From Sulfurospirillum multivorans DSM 12446 (GTDB lineage: Bacteria > Campylobacterota > Campylobacteria > Campylobacterales > Sulfurospirillaceae): a stretch of 64,000 nucleotides of DNA. How positions within the stretch are numbered: the stretch's first letter is position 1; each line of letters opens with the position of its first letter. A model generated the notes under the pieces. The model was not told where the DNA came from. It did no database searches and saw only the letters and a program-made list of their open reading frames with translations. The position numbers and the translations under genes are program-made. Of this stretch, positions 44,325 to 51,107 are shown piece by piece. Location: positions 2,365,654 to 2,429,653 of the forward strand of contig NZ_CP007201.1 of the NCBI RefSeq assembly GCF_000568815.1, written 5' to 3'.

Positions 44325-44393
44325 ACACGCTACAAGGGCAAAGCTCTTGTAGCTACGTTGCACTAGGCACTAAAGCTTGCCTCTTCGAGGCAG
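44325..44393. repeat. Intergenic two-hairpin element, copy A
   Basis: ACACG (44325-44329), a 23-nt hairpin with 10-nt arms and loop AAA (CTACAAGGGC / GCTCTTGTAG, one G-U), then CTACG (44353-44357). A second hairpin TGCCTC-TTC-GAGGCA (44378-44392) is followed by a T-rich stretch. It lies between the convergent cytochrome c and ccoS genes, so it may also act as a terminator. It fills most of the 143-bp spacer. Confidence 0.75.
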
Positions 44394-44457
44394 AGTTTGT
44401 TTTCGTTTTCTCTCACTTACTCAAATTCTTGCTTTTGGATCTCCACAGATCATCTTC

Positions 44458-44697
44458 TTAATCAGGAGGCGCATAGCCTTTCTCTCTTTTGTGCTTCTCT
44501 TTTAAAATATCGGCTTTTTTACGCTCCATCATGACCGCATCCCTCAAAGCTTCTTCACTGTCAAACTGCGCACCATCAATAAACTTTTTATGGTCATCAA
44601 ATTGACCGCTACGAATGCCCCACAAAAGCGCCCACAAACCAAAAGCTCCTAAAAGTGTGGAAGCCCCTAGCATCATCCCAACAATCCAACCATCCAT
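44458..44697 (-). CDS. ccoS: Cytochrome oxidase maturation protein, cbb3-type (CcoS)
   Basis: A 79-residue protein with one N-terminal membrane helix (about 4-27, rich in Gly/Leu), then FDDHKKFIDGAQFDSEEALRDAV, the typical short tail of CcoS. CcoS is needed for cofactor insertion in cbb3 oxidase. It follows ccoI with 2 bp spacing, the standard order. The oxidase structural genes are not in the window. Confidence 0.93.
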   Translation of the reverse strand: MDGWIVGMMLGASTLLGAFGLWALLWGIRSGQFDDHKKFIDGAQFDSEEALRDAVMMERKKADILKEKHKREKGYAPPD

Positions 44698-44699
44698 TC

Positions 44700-47123
44700 T
44701 TACGACCTTTTTAAAACGTTTTTAATACGCATTGAATTTCCAACCACCACCAAAGAGCTTAGCGACATCGAAAGTGCTGCGAAAAGAGGGATAACGTGTC
44801 CGCTCATTGCCAAAGGGATCGTGATGACATTGTACAGCAGGGAAAAGAGCAGATTCTCTTTGACCACGCGAAGGCTCTTGCGCGCTATCACAAAAGCTTC
44901 ATACAAGCTATTGACACTGTCATTGGTCAGTACAACGTCGCTGACATCGACCGCGACATCCGCGCCACTTCCCATGGAAATGGCAATCTCGCTTTGAGAA
45001 AGGGCTAGCGTGTCGTTGATGCCATCTCCTGCCATGACCACTTTTTTACCCTGTTTGCGCAACGCTTCGATGTAGTCCGCTTTTTCATGCGGTAAAAGGG
45101 CGGCTTCATACACCTCAATGCCCACTTCTTTGGCTATCGCTTGGGTCACGCTGAGATGATCGCCACTGAGCATCACGATCTCAAGGCCGAGTTTTTTAAG
45201 CGCCTCAATGCTCTCACGCGCTCCTTCTTTCAAGCTGTCCCTGAGTCCAAAAATAGCCACTAAATTGCCATCGATGGCAAAAAAGTAGTGGCTTAAGGGT
45301 TCAAGCGTGGAAGGAATGTGAAGTTCAACACCCTCTTCGTACATCATTTTAGCATTGCCACCCAAAAGCGTATGCCCCTCAAAAAGAGCTTTCACCCCTT
45401 TGGCTTCCACGGTTTTGACCTGTTCTAAATGCTTTACATGTAAAGACTCCTCAGAGTCTTTCAGGAAGCTTGCAATGCCTTGACTGATGGGATGCGTGGA
45501 GCTAGAGACCAACGCGTACAAAAGGGAACGATCAAAACTTTGCACATACGCTGTTTCAACCACTTCTGGCTTGCCTTTGGTAATCGTTCCTGTTTTATCC
45601 AAAACGAGTGTGTCGCATTTTGCCATGCTCTCAATAAATCCCGCCTCTTTAAATAAAATGCCTCGCTTCGCCGCCAAACCAAGCCCCACCAAGGTTGCCA
45701 CTGGCGTTGCTAAAGAGAGTGCGCACGGGCACGCAATCACGATTACTGAGATTGCAACGATCAAGCCTGTCTCAAAGGAACCACTCTGGTAAAACCAAAA
45801 AAGCAGGGTTGAAAACGCCAAAAAAAGAATGGTACGTGAGAAATACCCTGAAATTTGATTGGCGAGTTTTTCGATCTTTGGCTTTTTATTCATCGCATCT
45901 TCAAGCAAGGTGACCAATTTGGAGAGCATCGAAGAGGAGAACGTATTGGTCGCTTGGTAGCGAATGACACTGTCTAAACAGATGGAACCGCTGAGGATTT
46001 TATCGCCTTTTTGGGATAAAATGGGGATAGATTCGCCATTCAGCCTTGAGAGATCAAACGAGCCTTCTCCTTCTACAATGAGTCCATCGATCGCTACTTT
46101 ATCGCCTGCTCGAACTTCAATGATCTCTCCAATTTCAACCGAATCCACACTCGTTAAAATCTTCTCATCACCTTTAATGATCATCACTTCACTCGGCATC
46201 GCACTTCCAAAAGCATCTAACGTATCGACCGCTTTTTTCTTCGTTAACACTTCTAAATACTTGCCTGCAAACACAAAGGTAATAATCATCGTCACCGAGT
46301 CAAAATAGACCTCAGCACTGCGCGTAAACATCGCGTAGAGCGAAAAAACATAGGTCAGTGTCGCACCCGTGGCAACCAAAAAATCCATCGTCACATAACG
46401 ATGCTTGATGCCATAATACGCCCCTTTAAAATAGACAGAACCCGTGTAAAAGAGTGTAGGCGTTGCCAAAATAAACTCAGCAAAGTTCAAAATGCTTTTG
46501 ATGTTGCTTTCCATACCTGTAAAATACCCCGCATACTGCGCAATGGCGATCCACATCACGTTCATCGTCGAAAAAACACCCACGAGCAGCTTGGAGTAGT
46601 ACTCTCTGCGTTGTGCCGTAGCGCGCTCTTCTCCACTTTTAGGATCGTACGGATACGCGTTGTACCCGATGCTCCGAATCGTTTCAATGATCTGGGAAAG
46701 CTTAATAACCGCGCCATCCCAAACGATCTTGGCTTTGTGATTGGTGTAGTTGATGGAGACTTCAACAATGCCCTCTTGTTTGGAGAGCACTTTTTCATTC
46801 AGCCAGACGCACGCACTGCAATGAATACCTTCGATAATCAGCGCAATTTCATTCAAACCCTCTTTGTTTATTTTGACGTATTTAGAGATAAAACCATCTA
46901 AATCAAAGCGGCTGGTATCATCCAAGTTAACTTTAGGAGGCTCGAGTGTTGTTTCATCGCCCATTTTGGCGTAAAACGTATCGAGTCCTTCGTCTTTTAA
47001 GAGGTGGTAAACCCCTTGGCATCCTTTGCAACAAAAAAATTTGGGAGTTTCAAAAGTTGTATCTTGAAGTAACACAGAGGCGTTATATTCTAGATGACAG
47101 TGGTCGCAACGTCGTTTGCTCAT
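44700..47123 (-). CDS. ccoI: Copper-transporting P-type ATPase of cbb3 oxidase assembly (CcoI/FixI)
   Basis: An 807-residue P1B ATPase. The N-terminus has a Cys-rich metal-binding module (CDHCHLEY, FFCCKGCQGVY) and an HMA domain with GIHCSACVW. Eight membrane segments hold the CPC motif in VIACPCALSLATP. The phosphorylation site is LDKTGTITKG and the hinge is GDGINDTLAL. The Cys-rich front module and the adjacent ccoS mark it as the CcoI type, which delivers copper for cbb3 oxidase, rather than a detoxifying CopA. TTTACATGTAAA at 45433-45444 encodes SLHVKHL. Its leader contains hairpin element B. Confidence 0.94.
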   Translation of the reverse strand: MSKRRCDHCHLEYNASVLLQDTTFETPKFFCCKGCQGVYHLLKDEGLDTFYAKMGDETTLEPPKVNLDDTSRFDLDGFISKYVKINKEGLNEIALIIEGIHCSACVWLNEKVLSKQEGIVEVSINYTNHKAKIVWDGAVIKLSQIIETIRSIGYNAYPYDPKSGEERATAQRREYYSKLLVGVFSTMNVMWIAIAQYAGYFTGMESNIKSILNFAEFILATPTLFYTGSVYFKGAYYGIKHRYVTMDFLVATGATLTYVFSLYAMFTRSAEVYFDSVTMIITFVFAGKYLEVLTKKKAVDTLDAFGSAMPSEVMIIKGDEKILTSVDSVEIGEIIEVRAGDKVAIDGLIVEGEGSFDLSRLNGESIPILSQKGDKILSGSICLDSVIRYQATNTFSSSMLSKLVTLLEDAMNKKPKIEKLANQISGYFSRTILFLAFSTLLFWFYQSGSFETGLIVAISVIVIACPCALSLATPVATLVGLGLAAKRGILFKEAGFIESMAKCDTLVLDKTGTITKGKPEVVETAYVQSFDRSLLYALVSSSTHPISQGIASFLKDSEESLHVKHLEQVKTVEAKGVKALFEGHTLLGGNAKMMYEEGVELHIPSTLEPLSHYFFAIDGNLVAIFGLRDSLKEGARESIEALKKLGLEIVMLSGDHLSVTQAIAKEVGIEVYEAALLPHEKADYIEALRKQGKKVVMAGDGINDTLALSQSEIAISMGSGADVAVDVSDVVLTNDSVNSLYEAFVIARKSLRVVKENLLFSLLYNVITIPLAMSGHVIPLFAALSMSLSSLVVVGNSMRIKNVLKRS

Positions 47124-47143
47124 AGTACTCTTTCATATTTTTT

Positions 47144-47228
47144 ACACGCTTTTCAAGCAAAGCTTGAAAAACTACGCTAACCGCTATGGTACTGAAGCTT
47201 GCCTCATAGTGAGGCAGAAACTTTTTTT
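47144..47228. repeat. Intergenic two-hairpin element, copy B (ccoI leader)
   Basis: ACACG (47144-47148), a hairpin TTTTCAAGC-AAA-GCTTGAAAA (47150-47170), then CTACG (47172-47176). A second hairpin TGCCTCA-TAG-TGAGGCA (47200-47216) and a T7 run (47222-47228) follow. The spacing between ACACG and CTACG equals that of copies A and C. It lies in the 243-bp region between the divergent ccoI and EAL genes, downstream of the presumed ccoI promoter and so within the ccoI leader RNA. Confidence 0.75.
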
Positions 47229-47241
47229 GTCATTAAATATT

Positions 47242-47247
47242 ATTATA
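47242..47247 (-). promoter_or_regulatory. Candidate -10 box of ccoI-ccoS
   Basis: TATAAT on the minus strand, 119 bp upstream of the ccoI ATG. It would place element B inside the 5' untranslated leader. No good -35 is visible. Confidence 0.4.
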
Positions 47248-47249
47248 GC

Positions 47250-47279
47250 GTGACTTTTTTGTGATGAACCTGATAGAAT
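47250..47279 (+). promoter_or_regulatory. Candidate promoter of the EAL gene
   Basis: TGATAGAAT is an extended -10 (box at 47274-47279), with GTGACT (47250-47255) 18 bp upstream as a partial -35. Transcription would start near 47286, so the palindrome CTTACATGTAAG at 47325-47336 lies in the leader, or in the coding part if GTG 47310 is used. Confidence 0.4.
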
Positions 47280-47324
47280 GGTTGGCTTTATTTTTTTTTC
47301 AAAACCTTTGTGCTAAAGTGCGTC

Positions 47325-47336
47325 CTTACATGTAAG
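47325..47336. repeat. Intergenic copy of the TACATGTA palindrome (CTTACATGTAAG)
   Basis: A perfect 12-bp palindrome between the presumed EAL-gene promoter and the preferred TTG start. It is one of only two copies not inside a clear gene. Confidence 0.8.
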
Positions 47337-47366
47337 TGTACGCATCATTGGGTCAAGGGAAGGCGT

Positions 47367-48785
47367 TTGGAGAATACTAAAAAGCTCTATCTAAAAACAG
47401 GATTTTTTCTAACACTGATCTTATGCCCTATTTATATCGCTATTTCGTATCATTATACGTTTCTTGCGTATGCTTTGCTGAGTGTGATTAGTACGCTTTG
47501 CTTCTTTTTTGTTACAAAATTACAAAAAAGCAATGCCCATCTTCAAAGCGAACTGCGCAAAAATCTCTACATCGATCTCAACACGAAACTTCCCAATCGA
47601 CTCAAGCTCTTAAAAGACAACAAAAAACTTGACCCCAACATTGATTCGACGTTGATTATTATCAACATTGACTCGTTTCAAAACACAAACAACTTTTACG
47701 GTCACAACTTTGGCGACAATTTTCTCAAAGTGATCGGTGAATGGCTTTTCCACAATCTTCCCCCCGTGGATGCCACCCTCTATAAATTTGAAGCCGACAT
47801 TTACGCCATTTTGATTCGTGTCCCTTTTAGTGAATACAACCTCAAAAAATACCTCAAAAAGATCTCGATGAAAATCACCAAAGATCGCATCATTTGTGAA
47901 GAGGTTGAAGTCGATACAACACTTTCCATCGGCGCGCATCAAGGCAAAAAGAATATTCTTAAACTCGCTTCGATCGCCTGTAAAGAGGCTAAAAACAAAC
48001 GCTTGCCCTATATGATTTATGAGAAAAGCAGCCTCAAAGAAGCAGAGTACCATCACAATATGATGATGAACCACACCCTCAAAGAAGCGCTTGCCAAAGA
48101 CTACGTCATCCCTTTTTTCCAGCCCATTTTGAACCTTCACACCAATGAGATTGAGAAGTTTGAGACACTGATGCGGATCAAAAAAGAGGATGGAACCTAC
48201 TATCTGCCTGCTGAGTTTTTAGACGTTGCGAAACACTCAAAGATCTACTCAAAACTTTCGATGGCATTGATTCAAAAGGCGTTTGAAACCTTTCAAATCT
48301 CCTCCAATAGCTTCTCCATCAACCTCTCTTACCTCGATATGACCAACCTTGTTACCACCACCTTCATCATCGAAAAGCTCGAAGAGTTTAATGTGGGACC
48401 TTGGGTTATTTTTGAGATTTTGGAGAGCGATGGTATTGAAAATTACGAAGCGATTGCCAAATTTATTGACCAAGTGAAGTCGTATGGGGCGAAGATTGCG
48501 ATTGATGATTTTGGCTCAGGGTACTCCAATTTTGAACGATTGACGGAGCTTAGGGTTGATTTTATTAAGATTGATGGAAGTTTGATTAAAAATATCCATC
48601 AAAATGAAGAGACCAAGATTATCGTTAAGACGATCGTCAACTTTGCCAAAGAGCTCAACATCAAAACGATCGCAGAGTATGTTCACTCCAAAGAGGTTCT
48701 TGAGTGTGTTCAAGAGATCGGGATTGATTATGCGCAAGGCTTTTACATCGGCAAACCAAACCCTAAACTTCCCATCAATGCGTGA
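47367..48785 (+). CDS. Membrane-bound GGDEF-EAL protein, c-di-GMP phosphodiesterase with degenerate GGDEF
   Basis: Two membrane helices (about 12-29 and 33-50) are followed by a GGDEF-like domain in which the signature is replaced by FEADIY, so cyclase activity is unlikely. The EAL domain keeps the expected catalytic pattern: FETLMR (ExL), INLSYL, FEILES, IDDFGSGYSNF, FIKIDGS, TIAEYV and QGFYIG. It should therefore degrade c-di-GMP. I prefer TTG 47367 (473 residues) because GGGAAGG precedes it; the GTG at 47310 would add an unlikely Cys/His-rich start. The 3' end overlaps the convergent transporter gene by 11 bp. Confidence 0.85.
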   Translation: MENTKKLYLKTGFFLTLILCPIYIAISYHYTFLAYALLSVISTLCFFFVTKLQKSNAHLQSELRKNLYIDLNTKLPNRLKLLKDNKKLDPNIDSTLIIINIDSFQNTNNFYGHNFGDNFLKVIGEWLFHNLPPVDATLYKFEADIYAILIRVPFSEYNLKKYLKKISMKITKDRIICEEVEVDTTLSIGAHQGKKNILKLASIACKEAKNKRLPYMIYEKSSLKEAEYHHNMMMNHTLKEALAKDYVIPFFQPILNLHTNEIEKFETLMRIKKEDGTYYLPAEFLDVAKHSKIYSKLSMALIQKAFETFQISSNSFSINLSYLDMTNLVTTTFIIEKLEEFNVGPWVIFEILESDGIENYEAIAKFIDQVKSYGAKIAIDDFGSGYSNFERLTELRVDFIKIDGSLIKNIHQNEETKIIVKTIVNFAKELNIKTIAEYVHSKEVLECVQEIGIDYAQGFYIGKPNPKLPINA

Positions 48786-49677
48786 GAGCCTCTTTTTTCT
48801 TTACATGTAAACAGAGATAAATCCCACCAAAGATCAAAACAACGCCCCCTAAATGGTACCACTCTAAACGTTCCCCTAAAAAAATATAGGCTAAAAAACT
48901 GCCAAACAGTGGCATCAAATGGGTAAATTGCCCTGTTTTATAGGCTCCAATGTGCGCAATGCCTTTGTGCCACAGGTAATACGAAAGAATCGACGTAAAA
49001 ATCACCACATACGCAATCACCCACGTGTACTGCGTGATAATCGCCATTTCGCGCTCCAAAGAGTACCCTTGCGCCACGTAAAAGGGTAAAAGCATGGGCA
49101 CACCCAAACTCACCGTGGTGATAAAAAACTCCATACTGCTCAAGCTTTGAGGGCGAAATTTGACCAAAACACTGTAACTCGCCCAACAAAGCGATGAAGC
49201 GATCACCCAAAAATCACCAGGATTGAGACTTAAAGAGTGAAGGCTCATCACATTGCCTTTGAGCACTAAAAAGACGACACCCAGCGTTGAGAGCACGATG
49301 CCTAACATCTGCTTGTGTGAGATGGTGGATTTGAGGATCAGCGAAGAGAGAAACACAATGATGATGGGAATGGAGGAGTTAATCAGCAGCGCATTCGTTG
49401 CGGTTGTGTGTTGTAAACCAACGTATAAAAGTGTATTAAAACTCGCAATACCAAGGGCTGAGAGGAGAAGTAAAATGCCAAAATAGCTTTTTAGTGCTGC
49501 CCAAATACGCTTTACATGTAAGAGTAAAAACGGAAACATCAGAAGCCAAACACCCAGCCATCTAAAAAACGCTAACTCTAAGGGCTCAATAGCGCCTGCG
49601 ACAAAACGCCCGAGGACAAAGTTGGCGGACCAAAAGAGTACACACAACACCAAAAGTAGATAAACGTGCATTTTCAT
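48775..49677 (-). CDS. Drug/metabolite transporter (EamA family)
   Basis: A 300-residue membrane protein with ten predicted helices in two EamA repeats. The first begins LFWSANFVLGRFV and the second DFWVIASSLCWASYSVLVKF, showing the typical internal duplication. Members export amino acids or other metabolites; substrate cannot be predicted. Two palindrome copies encode LHVK here, one at the very C-terminus. A TATAAT box (49695-49700) lies just upstream. Confidence 0.9.
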   Translation of the reverse strand: MKMHVYLLLVLCVLFWSANFVLGRFVAGAIEPLELAFFRWLGVWLLMFPFLLLHVKRIWAALKSYFGILLLLSALGIASFNTLLYVGLQHTTATNALLINSSIPIIIVFLSSLILKSTISHKQMLGIVLSTLGVVFLVLKGNVMSLHSLSLNPGDFWVIASSLCWASYSVLVKFRPQSLSSMEFFITTVSLGVPMLLPFYVAQGYSLEREMAIITQYTWVIAYVVIFTSILSYYLWHKGIAHIGAYKTGQFTHLMPLFGSFLAYIFLGERLEWYHLGGVVLIFGGIYLCLHVKKKEALTH

Positions 49678-49694
49678 CCTTTTTATGAAGCGTG

Positions 49695-49721
49695 ATTATA
49701 ACAAATATAACGCCATTGCAA
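49695..49721 (-). promoter_or_regulatory. Promoter of the EamA transporter gene
   Basis: On the minus strand TATAAT (49695-49700) is preceded by TTGCAA (49716-49721) at 15 bp, a slightly short spacing. Confidence 0.45.
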
Positions 49722-49771
49722 CAGATCAGGGGTAGACTTTTAATCATGAAAGATCTTTTAAGGAGGATCCA

Positions 49772-50941
49772 ATGCTGTACCAACTTAATGTGCGAGAACT
49801 CACCTACGTGCTCTGCGAAGCACTTGATTATGTAGGAATTGATGACATCATGCACGGCAAACGTGTCGCGTACATTGCGTGTGAAATCGGTAAACAACTG
49901 GGCTGGAGAGAGTCAAAACTTGATAAAGTGATGATGATGGCGATGCTGCATGATTGTGGGGTTTCATCCACGGGCGTACATCATGCAATTGTGAGTCAAT
50001 TAGATTGGGAAGATTCTTACGTGCATTGCGCCAAAGGGGCTAGTTTACTCAAAGAAGTGCCTCTTTACAGCGATTATGTCGAGGTCATCGCGTTTCATCA
50101 CACCCATTGGAAAGCATTCTGTCCCTATGTCAATGAAGAGATCAAACTCTACGCCAATCTGATTTATCTAGCGGATCGTATTGATGCGCTGCGTTCTCAA
50201 TTTGGAGCGCATCTGTACCACGAAAAAGAGACGATTCGTTCCATCATTCAACATCATACACCTTCGATGTTTTCGCCCCTGCTCTGCGATGCGTTCAAAG
50301 AGGCGTCTCACACGGAATTTTTTTGGTACTATTTAGAATCAACGGCACTGCCGTATTACTTCAAAGAGTGGGTTGATCAAGGCGAAATTCAAGCAGTACC
50401 CTTTGATATTTTGAAAAAAATAGCTTTAATGTTTTCAGGTATCGTCGATGCAAAAGAGTCGATGCAAAAAGAGCGCACCTTAAATGTGGCGTCTCTTGCG
50501 CGCTACATTGCGCGCCTTGCAGGACTTTCGTTGCGTGACCAAGAGTGTCTCGAACTCTCCGCACTCTTGCACGATCTAGGCAAACTGCGCATTCCAGATA
50601 ACATTGCCACCAAAACAGCGCCATTGAGTGATGAAGAGTCTATTCATCTGCGACGCCAAGGATTTGATGCGCAGATTATTTTAGGGCAGATCAAAGGGTT
50701 TGAAAAAATTGCTAAGATCGTCGCCATGCACCACGAGCCGCTCTATAGCAAACGACTCTTTCCCACCAAAAGCGAAACGTATGCCACACCCCTAGAAGTC
50801 ACCATTTTAACCATTGCGACGACCTTTGAGCGTGGGCAGAGCGAAGAAGCGTCTGTGTTGCTTGAACAGATGGTGGAAACGTATCAGTTGGAAAAGAGCA
50901 TTATCTCAAACGTCGAAGCTTACTGCTCACTTTCATCGTGA
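49772..50941 (+). CDS. Double HD-domain protein with C-terminal degenerate HD-GYP domain
   Basis: The N-terminal half has HGKRVAYIACEIG, MLHDCG and FHHTHW, an HD phosphohydrolase. The C-terminal half has ALLHDLGKLRIP and AMHHEPLYSKRLFP, the arrangement of HD-GYP c-di-GMP phosphodiesterases, but the GYP tripeptide itself is not kept. Two HD modules in one 389-residue chain suggest a hydrolase acting on c-di-GMP or another nucleotide. AAGGAGG is placed ideally before ATG 49772. Hairpin element C begins at the last base of the stop codon. It is not linked by operon to its neighbours. Confidence 0.82.
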   Translation: MLYQLNVRELTYVLCEALDYVGIDDIMHGKRVAYIACEIGKQLGWRESKLDKVMMMAMLHDCGVSSTGVHHAIVSQLDWEDSYVHCAKGASLLKEVPLYSDYVEVIAFHHTHWKAFCPYVNEEIKLYANLIYLADRIDALRSQFGAHLYHEKETIRSIIQHHTPSMFSPLLCDAFKEASHTEFFWYYLESTALPYYFKEWVDQGEIQAVPFDILKKIALMFSGIVDAKESMQKERTLNVASLARYIARLAGLSLRDQECLELSALLHDLGKLRIPDNIATKTAPLSDEESIHLRRQGFDAQIILGQIKGFEKIAKIVAMHHEPLYSKRLFPTKSETYATPLEVTILTIATTFERGQSEEASVLLEQMVETYQLEKSIISNVEAYCSLSS

Positions 50942-51024
50942 CACGTTTTTAAAGCAAAGCTTTAAAGACTACGTTAACACTGAGTAATGCTTGGCGCAAT
51001 GCCCACGCACCCTTGGTGCTTTTT
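50941..51024. repeat. Intergenic two-hairpin element, copy C
   Basis: ACACG (50941-50945), a hairpin TTTAAAGC-AAA-GCTTTAAA (50948-50966), then CTACG (50969-50973), the same 28-nt spacing as copies A and B. GCTTG follows at 50989, then a final hairpin with T-run listed separately. The arms differ in sequence from A and B but stay complementary. Confidence 0.75.
51007..51024 (+). terminator. Rho-independent terminator after the HD gene
   Basis: GCACC-CTT-GGTGC followed by TTTTT. It is the last part of element C and 66 bp downstream of the HD-gene stop. Confidence 0.65.
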
Positions 51025-51107
51025 ACTTCTGTTTTGCAAAAAGTCTATTGCTTTCTCAGTCAAATTCTCTAACTTTTTAAATTAAGAGTTGATTTATCCG
51101 AGTTAGC

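Follow-up and report, generated by a model that had tools for sequence, protein, structure and literature searches.

Short dispersed repeats with a covarying, crossing-helix core in Sulfurospirillum multivorans and other Campylobacterota

Three intergenic spacers in a 64,000-nucleotide stretch of the Sulfurospirillum multivorans chromosome (G000:C1:2365654-2429653; hereafter, the window) share ACACG, 23 nt of changing sequence and CTACG, raising the question of whether a mobile repeat, an RNA element or something that is both lies behind them. A sequence-only reading had reported this motif at 44325, 47144 and 50941, and we found all three sites as described. The 10-nt arms said to pair around an AAA loop did so, with nine of ten Watson-Crick pairs at each site; only 31 of 200,000 random 23-mers drawn from the window paired as well. 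As the G of ACACG also pairs with the C of CTACG, the stem of this hairpin (HP1) is 11 bp long, with AAA as its loop. The features of the three sites are listed in Table 1.

Table 1. Features of the three element copies in the window (window coordinates)
Feature	Position	Detail	Basis
Type B copy 1	44325..44397	Spacer between cytochrome c (gene ends 44314) and the following gene, which runs on the opposite strand	R3 75.9 bits, E 8e-17
HP1 of copy 1	44329-44339 with 44343-44353	Loop AAA 44340-44342	Sequence; covariation across 22 type B copies
Second hairpin of copy 1	44378-44383 with 44387-44392	TGCCTC with GAGGCA	Sequence; covarying helix
Type B copy 2	47144..47221	HP1 side ~20 bp upstream of the heavy-metal ATPase start codon (47123, minus strand)	R3 86.5 bits, E 2e-19; conserved in G006
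HP1 of copy 2	47148..47172		Sequence; random 23-mer comparison
Putative pseudoknot-like unit 1 of copy 2	47176..47190	47176-47177 with 47183-47184, crossing 47180-47182 with 47188-47190	Type B covariation; coordinates assigned by reading this copy
Second hairpin of copy 2	47200-47205 with 47211-47216	TGCCTC with GAGGCA	Sequence; covariation in type B
Type A copy 3 core (HP1, two putative pseudoknot-like units, HP3)	50941..51023		R2 98.7 bits, E 4e-21
HP1 of copy 3	50945..50969		Sequence; covariation, mutual information
Putative unit 1 of copy 3	50973..50986	Pa 50973-50974/50979-50980 crossing Pb 50976-50978/50984-50986; outer Pb pair 50976-50986 is A-A, unpaired	Family-wide mutual information, pair counts
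Putative unit 2 of copy 3	50987..51003	Pc 50987-50990/50996-50999 crossing Pd 50993-50995/51001-51003; outer Pc pairs imperfect	Mutual information, pair counts
HP3 of copy 3	51007..51019	GCACC 51007-51011 with GGTGC 51015-51019, then a T run (terminator-like on the plus strand)
IS-like right end of copy 3	51028..51047	TAGACTTTTTGCAAAACAGA on the minus strand, 16/20 to the IS5-family end TAGACATCTTGCAAAACTCA

The exact pattern matched the genome 33 times, compared with 8 times for a reversed control, and a relaxed pattern yielded 59 extracted copies, or about 60 in the 3.18-Mb genome. The three window sites are thus confirmed as members of a dispersed repeat family, larger than had been described. 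HP1 is common to all copies of its two subfamilies, and CTAC stands at the HP1 base (columns 29-32; GTAG on the other strand) in nearly all of them. Type A (31 copies, including 50941) consists of HP1, YTAACRCTG, a hairpin with the loop TCGGC, and GCACC-TTT-GGTGC followed by T; it is a short element (~138-150 bp) without coding capacity, present in many dispersed copies. Type B (23 copies, including 44325 and 47144) consists of HP1, YTAGCCRCTATGGC and a GCCTC/GAGGC hairpin. Because the two types differ beyond HP1, the GCTTG and second hairpin that had been read in every spacer are homologous only between 44325 and 47144, whereas at 50941 GCTTG lies inside a different second hairpin. The proximity to respiratory and signalling genes is likewise real locally (cytochrome c, heavy-metal ATPase, GGDEF-EAL and HD-domain genes), but copies in the family as a whole lie in mixed gene contexts. 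In an HP1 variant (L204, L205, L206 and L201), the 3' arm contains an extra hairpin of ~17 nt (AAAACGAAGTTTC...); copies of this kind lie in the S. multivorans genome (G000) at 225824, 3083346, 965665 and 204897. A separate near-palindrome, TTTACATGTAA, occurs 46 times on both strands (30 sites, for example 2905, 10583, 20863 and 52517) in the 64 kb, with 0.1 expected from dinucleotide shuffles, and also recurs beside many element copies.

The claim that the arms covary was borne out across this genome, in comparisons of different genera and at sites orthologous between species, with values far above those of shuffles and slid controls. Within this genome, covariation scores were 0.217 versus 0.096 for alignment A1 and 0.431 versus 0.137 for alignment A2, above all 500 shuffles in each case, and covariation in both alignments collapsed when the partners were slid. 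The slid control and the changes between genera carry more weight, because shuffling leaves relatedness in place. Among 70 matches from the genus and other genera, 94.8% of pairs in the pseudoknotted structure were standard; double changes affected 21 of 28 pairs, and there were 352 double-change cells compared with 94 in shuffles.

The search model for type A (R2) was built from nested hairpins only, so that crossing pairs were absent from it. An unbiased mutual-information scan of 95 distinct sequences (effective number ~30) recovered the nested stems together with the column pairs 53-63, 36-46, 34-39 and 37-45, none of which is paired in R2. Pair counts were GC 80 and AT 13 at 53-63, AT 78 and GC 13 at 36-46, and TA 66 and CG 24 at 34-39. 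In other genera, 53-63 was GC in 25 and AT in 11 sequences with zero exceptions, and 36-46 was AT in 22, GC in 13 and TA in 1. Type B showed Y-R covariation at 33-34/41-42 and a GCC/GGC helix. With these short crossing helices, the core appears to hold two consecutive pseudoknot-like units, the simplest reading being two H-type arrangements at columns 33-46 and 47-63. Loop lengths are tight, and the crossing helices of a unit may coexist or alternate; by our reasoning, the loops in some cases seem to leave too little room for the two strands to fold equally well. Template switching in quasi-palindromes, and not selection, could partly account for the compensatory changes in HP1, but it hardly explains crossing helices of 2-3 bp.

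Paired changes were also found in place, at orthologous sites. The 44325 site is filled in the closest relative, G006, by an identical copy and in G016 by a type B copy with two double compensatory changes in HP1; in G016 the flanks are ~74-77% identical and a type A insertion adjoins the type B copy. G006 also has a copy at the 50941 site, and HP1 pair 7-27 is A-T there but T-G in G000. Further in-place paired changes were found at L006, L017 and L013/L077.

The imperfect pairs differ between strands. On the strand read, A.C outnumbered G.T cells by 64 to 7 in the genus and by 48 to 5 in other genera. Without the two HP1 positions that define the subfamilies, the counts were 25 versus 7 (genus, p 0.002) and 41 versus 5 (other genera, p 4e-8), with p-values that are too small since cells are not independent, and a direction that is the same in the genus and in other genera. 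This excess of A.C over G.T would correspond to G.U or G.T pairs on the reverse strand, and the wobble pairs favour that strand as the one that may fold. The structure might instead be kept as DNA with no RNA role, as a cruciform or as single-stranded hairpins that are bound by protein or processed in transposition or replication. REP and IS200/IS605 elements provide precedents, and since single-stranded DNA also tolerates G.T better than A.C, RNA and DNA cannot be told apart by the wobble bias; a strand bias of 41 versus 5, however, would not arise from a symmetric duplex or cruciform, and the T run after HP3 is terminator-like. We regard retention purely as DNA as quite unlikely.

Mobility was assessed by comparing G000 with G006 (~95% identical at one locus) at 25 comparable sites on retrieved stretches. 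Eight of the 15 type A sites were filled in both genomes, and seven were without the element in G006. At most of these empty sites the size difference was 132-140 bp (~138 bp). Junctions were clean at L003, L005 and L018 and less clean at L009, L015, L016 and L024; as to a target-site duplication, all clean empty sites were at TA, but the position of the outermost bases shifts by as much as 3 nt. At L016 the situation is reversed, with a type A copy in G006 and an empty site in G000. Type A copies are therefore mobile. The nine type B sites comprised five with type B in both genomes, two with type A in G006 and two from which the element was absent without a clean junction. Type B looks older, since most of its sites are filled in both genomes and none has a clean empty junction. 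The two exchanges of type B in G000 for type A in G006 (L031/L089 and L023/L189, once inverted) suggest replacement of the element or reinsertion at a used site. Covariation and the empty type A sites together uphold the proposal of a selected structure, be it a mobile REP-like unit or an RNA element, with the amendment that mobility and a structured single strand are not exclusive.

A search for the type A ends turned up an IS5-family element of ~920 bp (NF033581, DDE_Tnp_4), of which G000 has five protein-level copies; the three compared were 99.9% identical and TA-flanked. Type A right ends matched the IS end at up to 19 of 20 positions, and 17 of 31 did so at 15/20 or better, compared with 0.2% of shuffles. 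The left end was weaker, with 11 of 31 copies matching at 12/16 or better; copy 3 is without a left end, and G006 retains the left hairpin at this site. Only 1 of 23 type B right ends matched the IS end. The match between type A ends and those of a resident IS5-family element makes type A MITE-like, with this element as a candidate carrier. The IS was found in three of seven sampled genomes of the genus (G000, G004 and G005) and not in the other four, some of which are rich in type A, and its presence does not track copy number (G008 has 74 element matches and no IS). It may thus be only the most recent carrier, and other related IS ends may exist in G000.

Another possible driver is a RAYT (Y1 transposase), which the sequence-only reading had proposed to look for: in a classical REP family, such an enzyme would recognize the GTAG-tagged HP1 on the reverse strand. 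GTAG does stand at the HP1 base in nearly all copies, a Y1 protein is present in single copy in 23 of 24 genomes of the genus (72 bits to NCBIfam REP_Tyr_transpos, below the cut-off of 80), and GTAG repeats have been reported from Sulfurovum sp. NBC37-1 (PMC3733652). Against this, there was no R2 or R3 match within 1.5 kb of 30 Y1 loci in the genus, and six complete element-bearing genomes (G039, G056, G099, G108, G112 and G148) gave no Y1 match. Y1 occurred in 25 of 37 element-bearing genomes and in 43 of 113 others; its length and NHYH motif, assigned by eye, resemble subclass 2.1, which is not REP-associated (PMC6006769). Moreover, what moves in type A is not a lone hairpin but a ~138-bp unit that has IS-like ends and sits at TA. 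With Y1 loci unflanked by copies and no Y1 match in several complete genomes that bear the element, the RAYT link was not supported, and we consider a RAYT decidedly unlikely as the driver. The Y1 protein itself (252 aa; L032:1462-2220, near 378549 of G000:C1) is conserved across the genus and has no flanking repeats.

The covariance-model scan, which had been suggested as a way to look for further copies, found them well beyond this genome. Type A gave 55 R2 matches in S. multivorans and was present in all 24 genomes of the genus, with 7-74 matches each, as well as, patchily, in 37 of 150 genomes (16 of 61 genera) of the order Campylobacterales; type B was present in 40 of the 150, also across 16 genera. 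In searches of more than 40 genomes, such as that of the order, copy counts are lower bounds. Within the 150-genome sample, type A was not found in other genera of the same family. In a named genome collection, a pattern for the A53/T63 variant matched 117 stretches, and all 80 matches listed came from Campylobacterota, the genera including Sulfurovum, Sulfuricurvum, Sulfurimonas, Hydrogenimonas, Nitratifractor and Sulfurospirillum. Outside the genus the core lacks IS5-like ends and its flanks differ, often with a different small hairpin beside HP1. Tandem arrays of the core with periods of ~95-110 bp were seen outside the genus at L152, L155, L174 and L176 (G157, G112 and G062), and one viral contig carried the type A core pattern (L359:5713-5740; IMGVR_UViG_3300032212_000702).

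Instead of a mobile repeat, the element could be a small RNA or a conserved RNA that regulates in cis, such as a riboswitch, leader or attenuator. The pseudoknot-like covariation, conserved unpaired bases and strand asymmetry would fit, and some copies, such as 47144, lie just upstream of a ribosome-binding site. However, the family-wide gene contexts did not support a dedicated cis-regulator: type A copies lay in 11 end/start, 9 start/end, 8 divergent and 3 convergent positions by crude longest-ORF gene calls, and wider sets showed a weak preference. A dedicated cis-regulator is disfavoured because the element has no consistent gene side or orientation; insertion polymorphism between close relatives also argues against this explanation, which we rate as unlikely, and the element has no Rfam family. 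In Rfam 15, no family reached its gathering score in the window and none matched the element at E up to 5 at five loci; an S15 leader match in L121 falls outside the element. We also considered a likeness of YTAACRCTG to the cleavage region of the twister ribozyme, and set it aside as Rfam gave no support.

Taking the dispersal, covariation and empty sites together, we consider it probable that these are short non-autonomous mobile repeats with a conserved structured core, MITE-like for type A in the genus, and that the core folds as a single strand, likely as RNA. The core would be laid out as HP1 with its CTAC base, unit 1, and then unit 2 and HP3 (type A) or another hairpin (type B). Type A would move in the genus as a MITE does, its ends presumably recognized in trans by an IS5-family DDE transposase. 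The core is probably kept because of its single-strand folding, and the folded form would most likely be RNA from the reverse strand. Such an RNA might act locally on the transcript that contains it, through stability, processing or termination. A bolder and more doubtful possibility, which we put forward tentatively, is a new class of dispersed structured RNA, with a tandem-pseudoknot fold confined to Campylobacterota and dozens of copies per genome, spread by different mobile ends and serving the whole genome as a module that acts either in trans or on transcripts of the host.

Accounts of small bacterial repeats usually centre on their ends or on a simple palindrome. The core described here is complex and has crossing helices, it is kept in tens of copies across genera, and close relatives show its recent movement. 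If the core is RNA, a well-sequenced phylum would contain a structured RNA that is uncharacterised and stands out by its copy number; if DNA, the question becomes what recognizes it. Either way, the family bears on how a selfish repeat maintains an elaborate structure.

A literature search that took in few subscription journals found nothing specific on such repeats in Sulfurospirillum or Campylobacterota. The BOX elements and SPRITEs of Streptococcus pneumoniae, likened here by description, are also dispersed, terminator-like or otherwise structured intergenic repeats. BOX elements are modular. They belong to a different phylum, and the present core is defined by covariation across genera. 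RUP of S. pneumoniae, a MITE of IS630-Spn1, is likewise a small, intergenic, non-autonomous repeat with ends like those of a resident IS and insertion at TA (PMC2229807); the repeats described here differ in their IS5-family partner, their pseudoknot-like core and the order-wide occurrence of that core with other ends. With GTAG-tagged REPs (Di Nocera et al. 2013, PMC3733652), GTAG at the base of a short-loop hairpin and alternative complementary stems are shared features, whereas HP1 is just one module of an 80-150 bp unit; HP1 may already be among the GTAG families of Sulfurovum sp. NBC37-1 treated there. The Correia/NEMIS elements of Neisseria are MITEs, 107-155 bp long and with TA termini, and RNase III cleaves their folded transcripts. 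The NEMIS fold is one long stem over the whole length of the element, whereas the element here has several separate hairpins and crossing helices. A small structured mobile repeat is thus a known kind of element; what is new in this family is a core with crossing helices that ranges across the order and has changed its ends.
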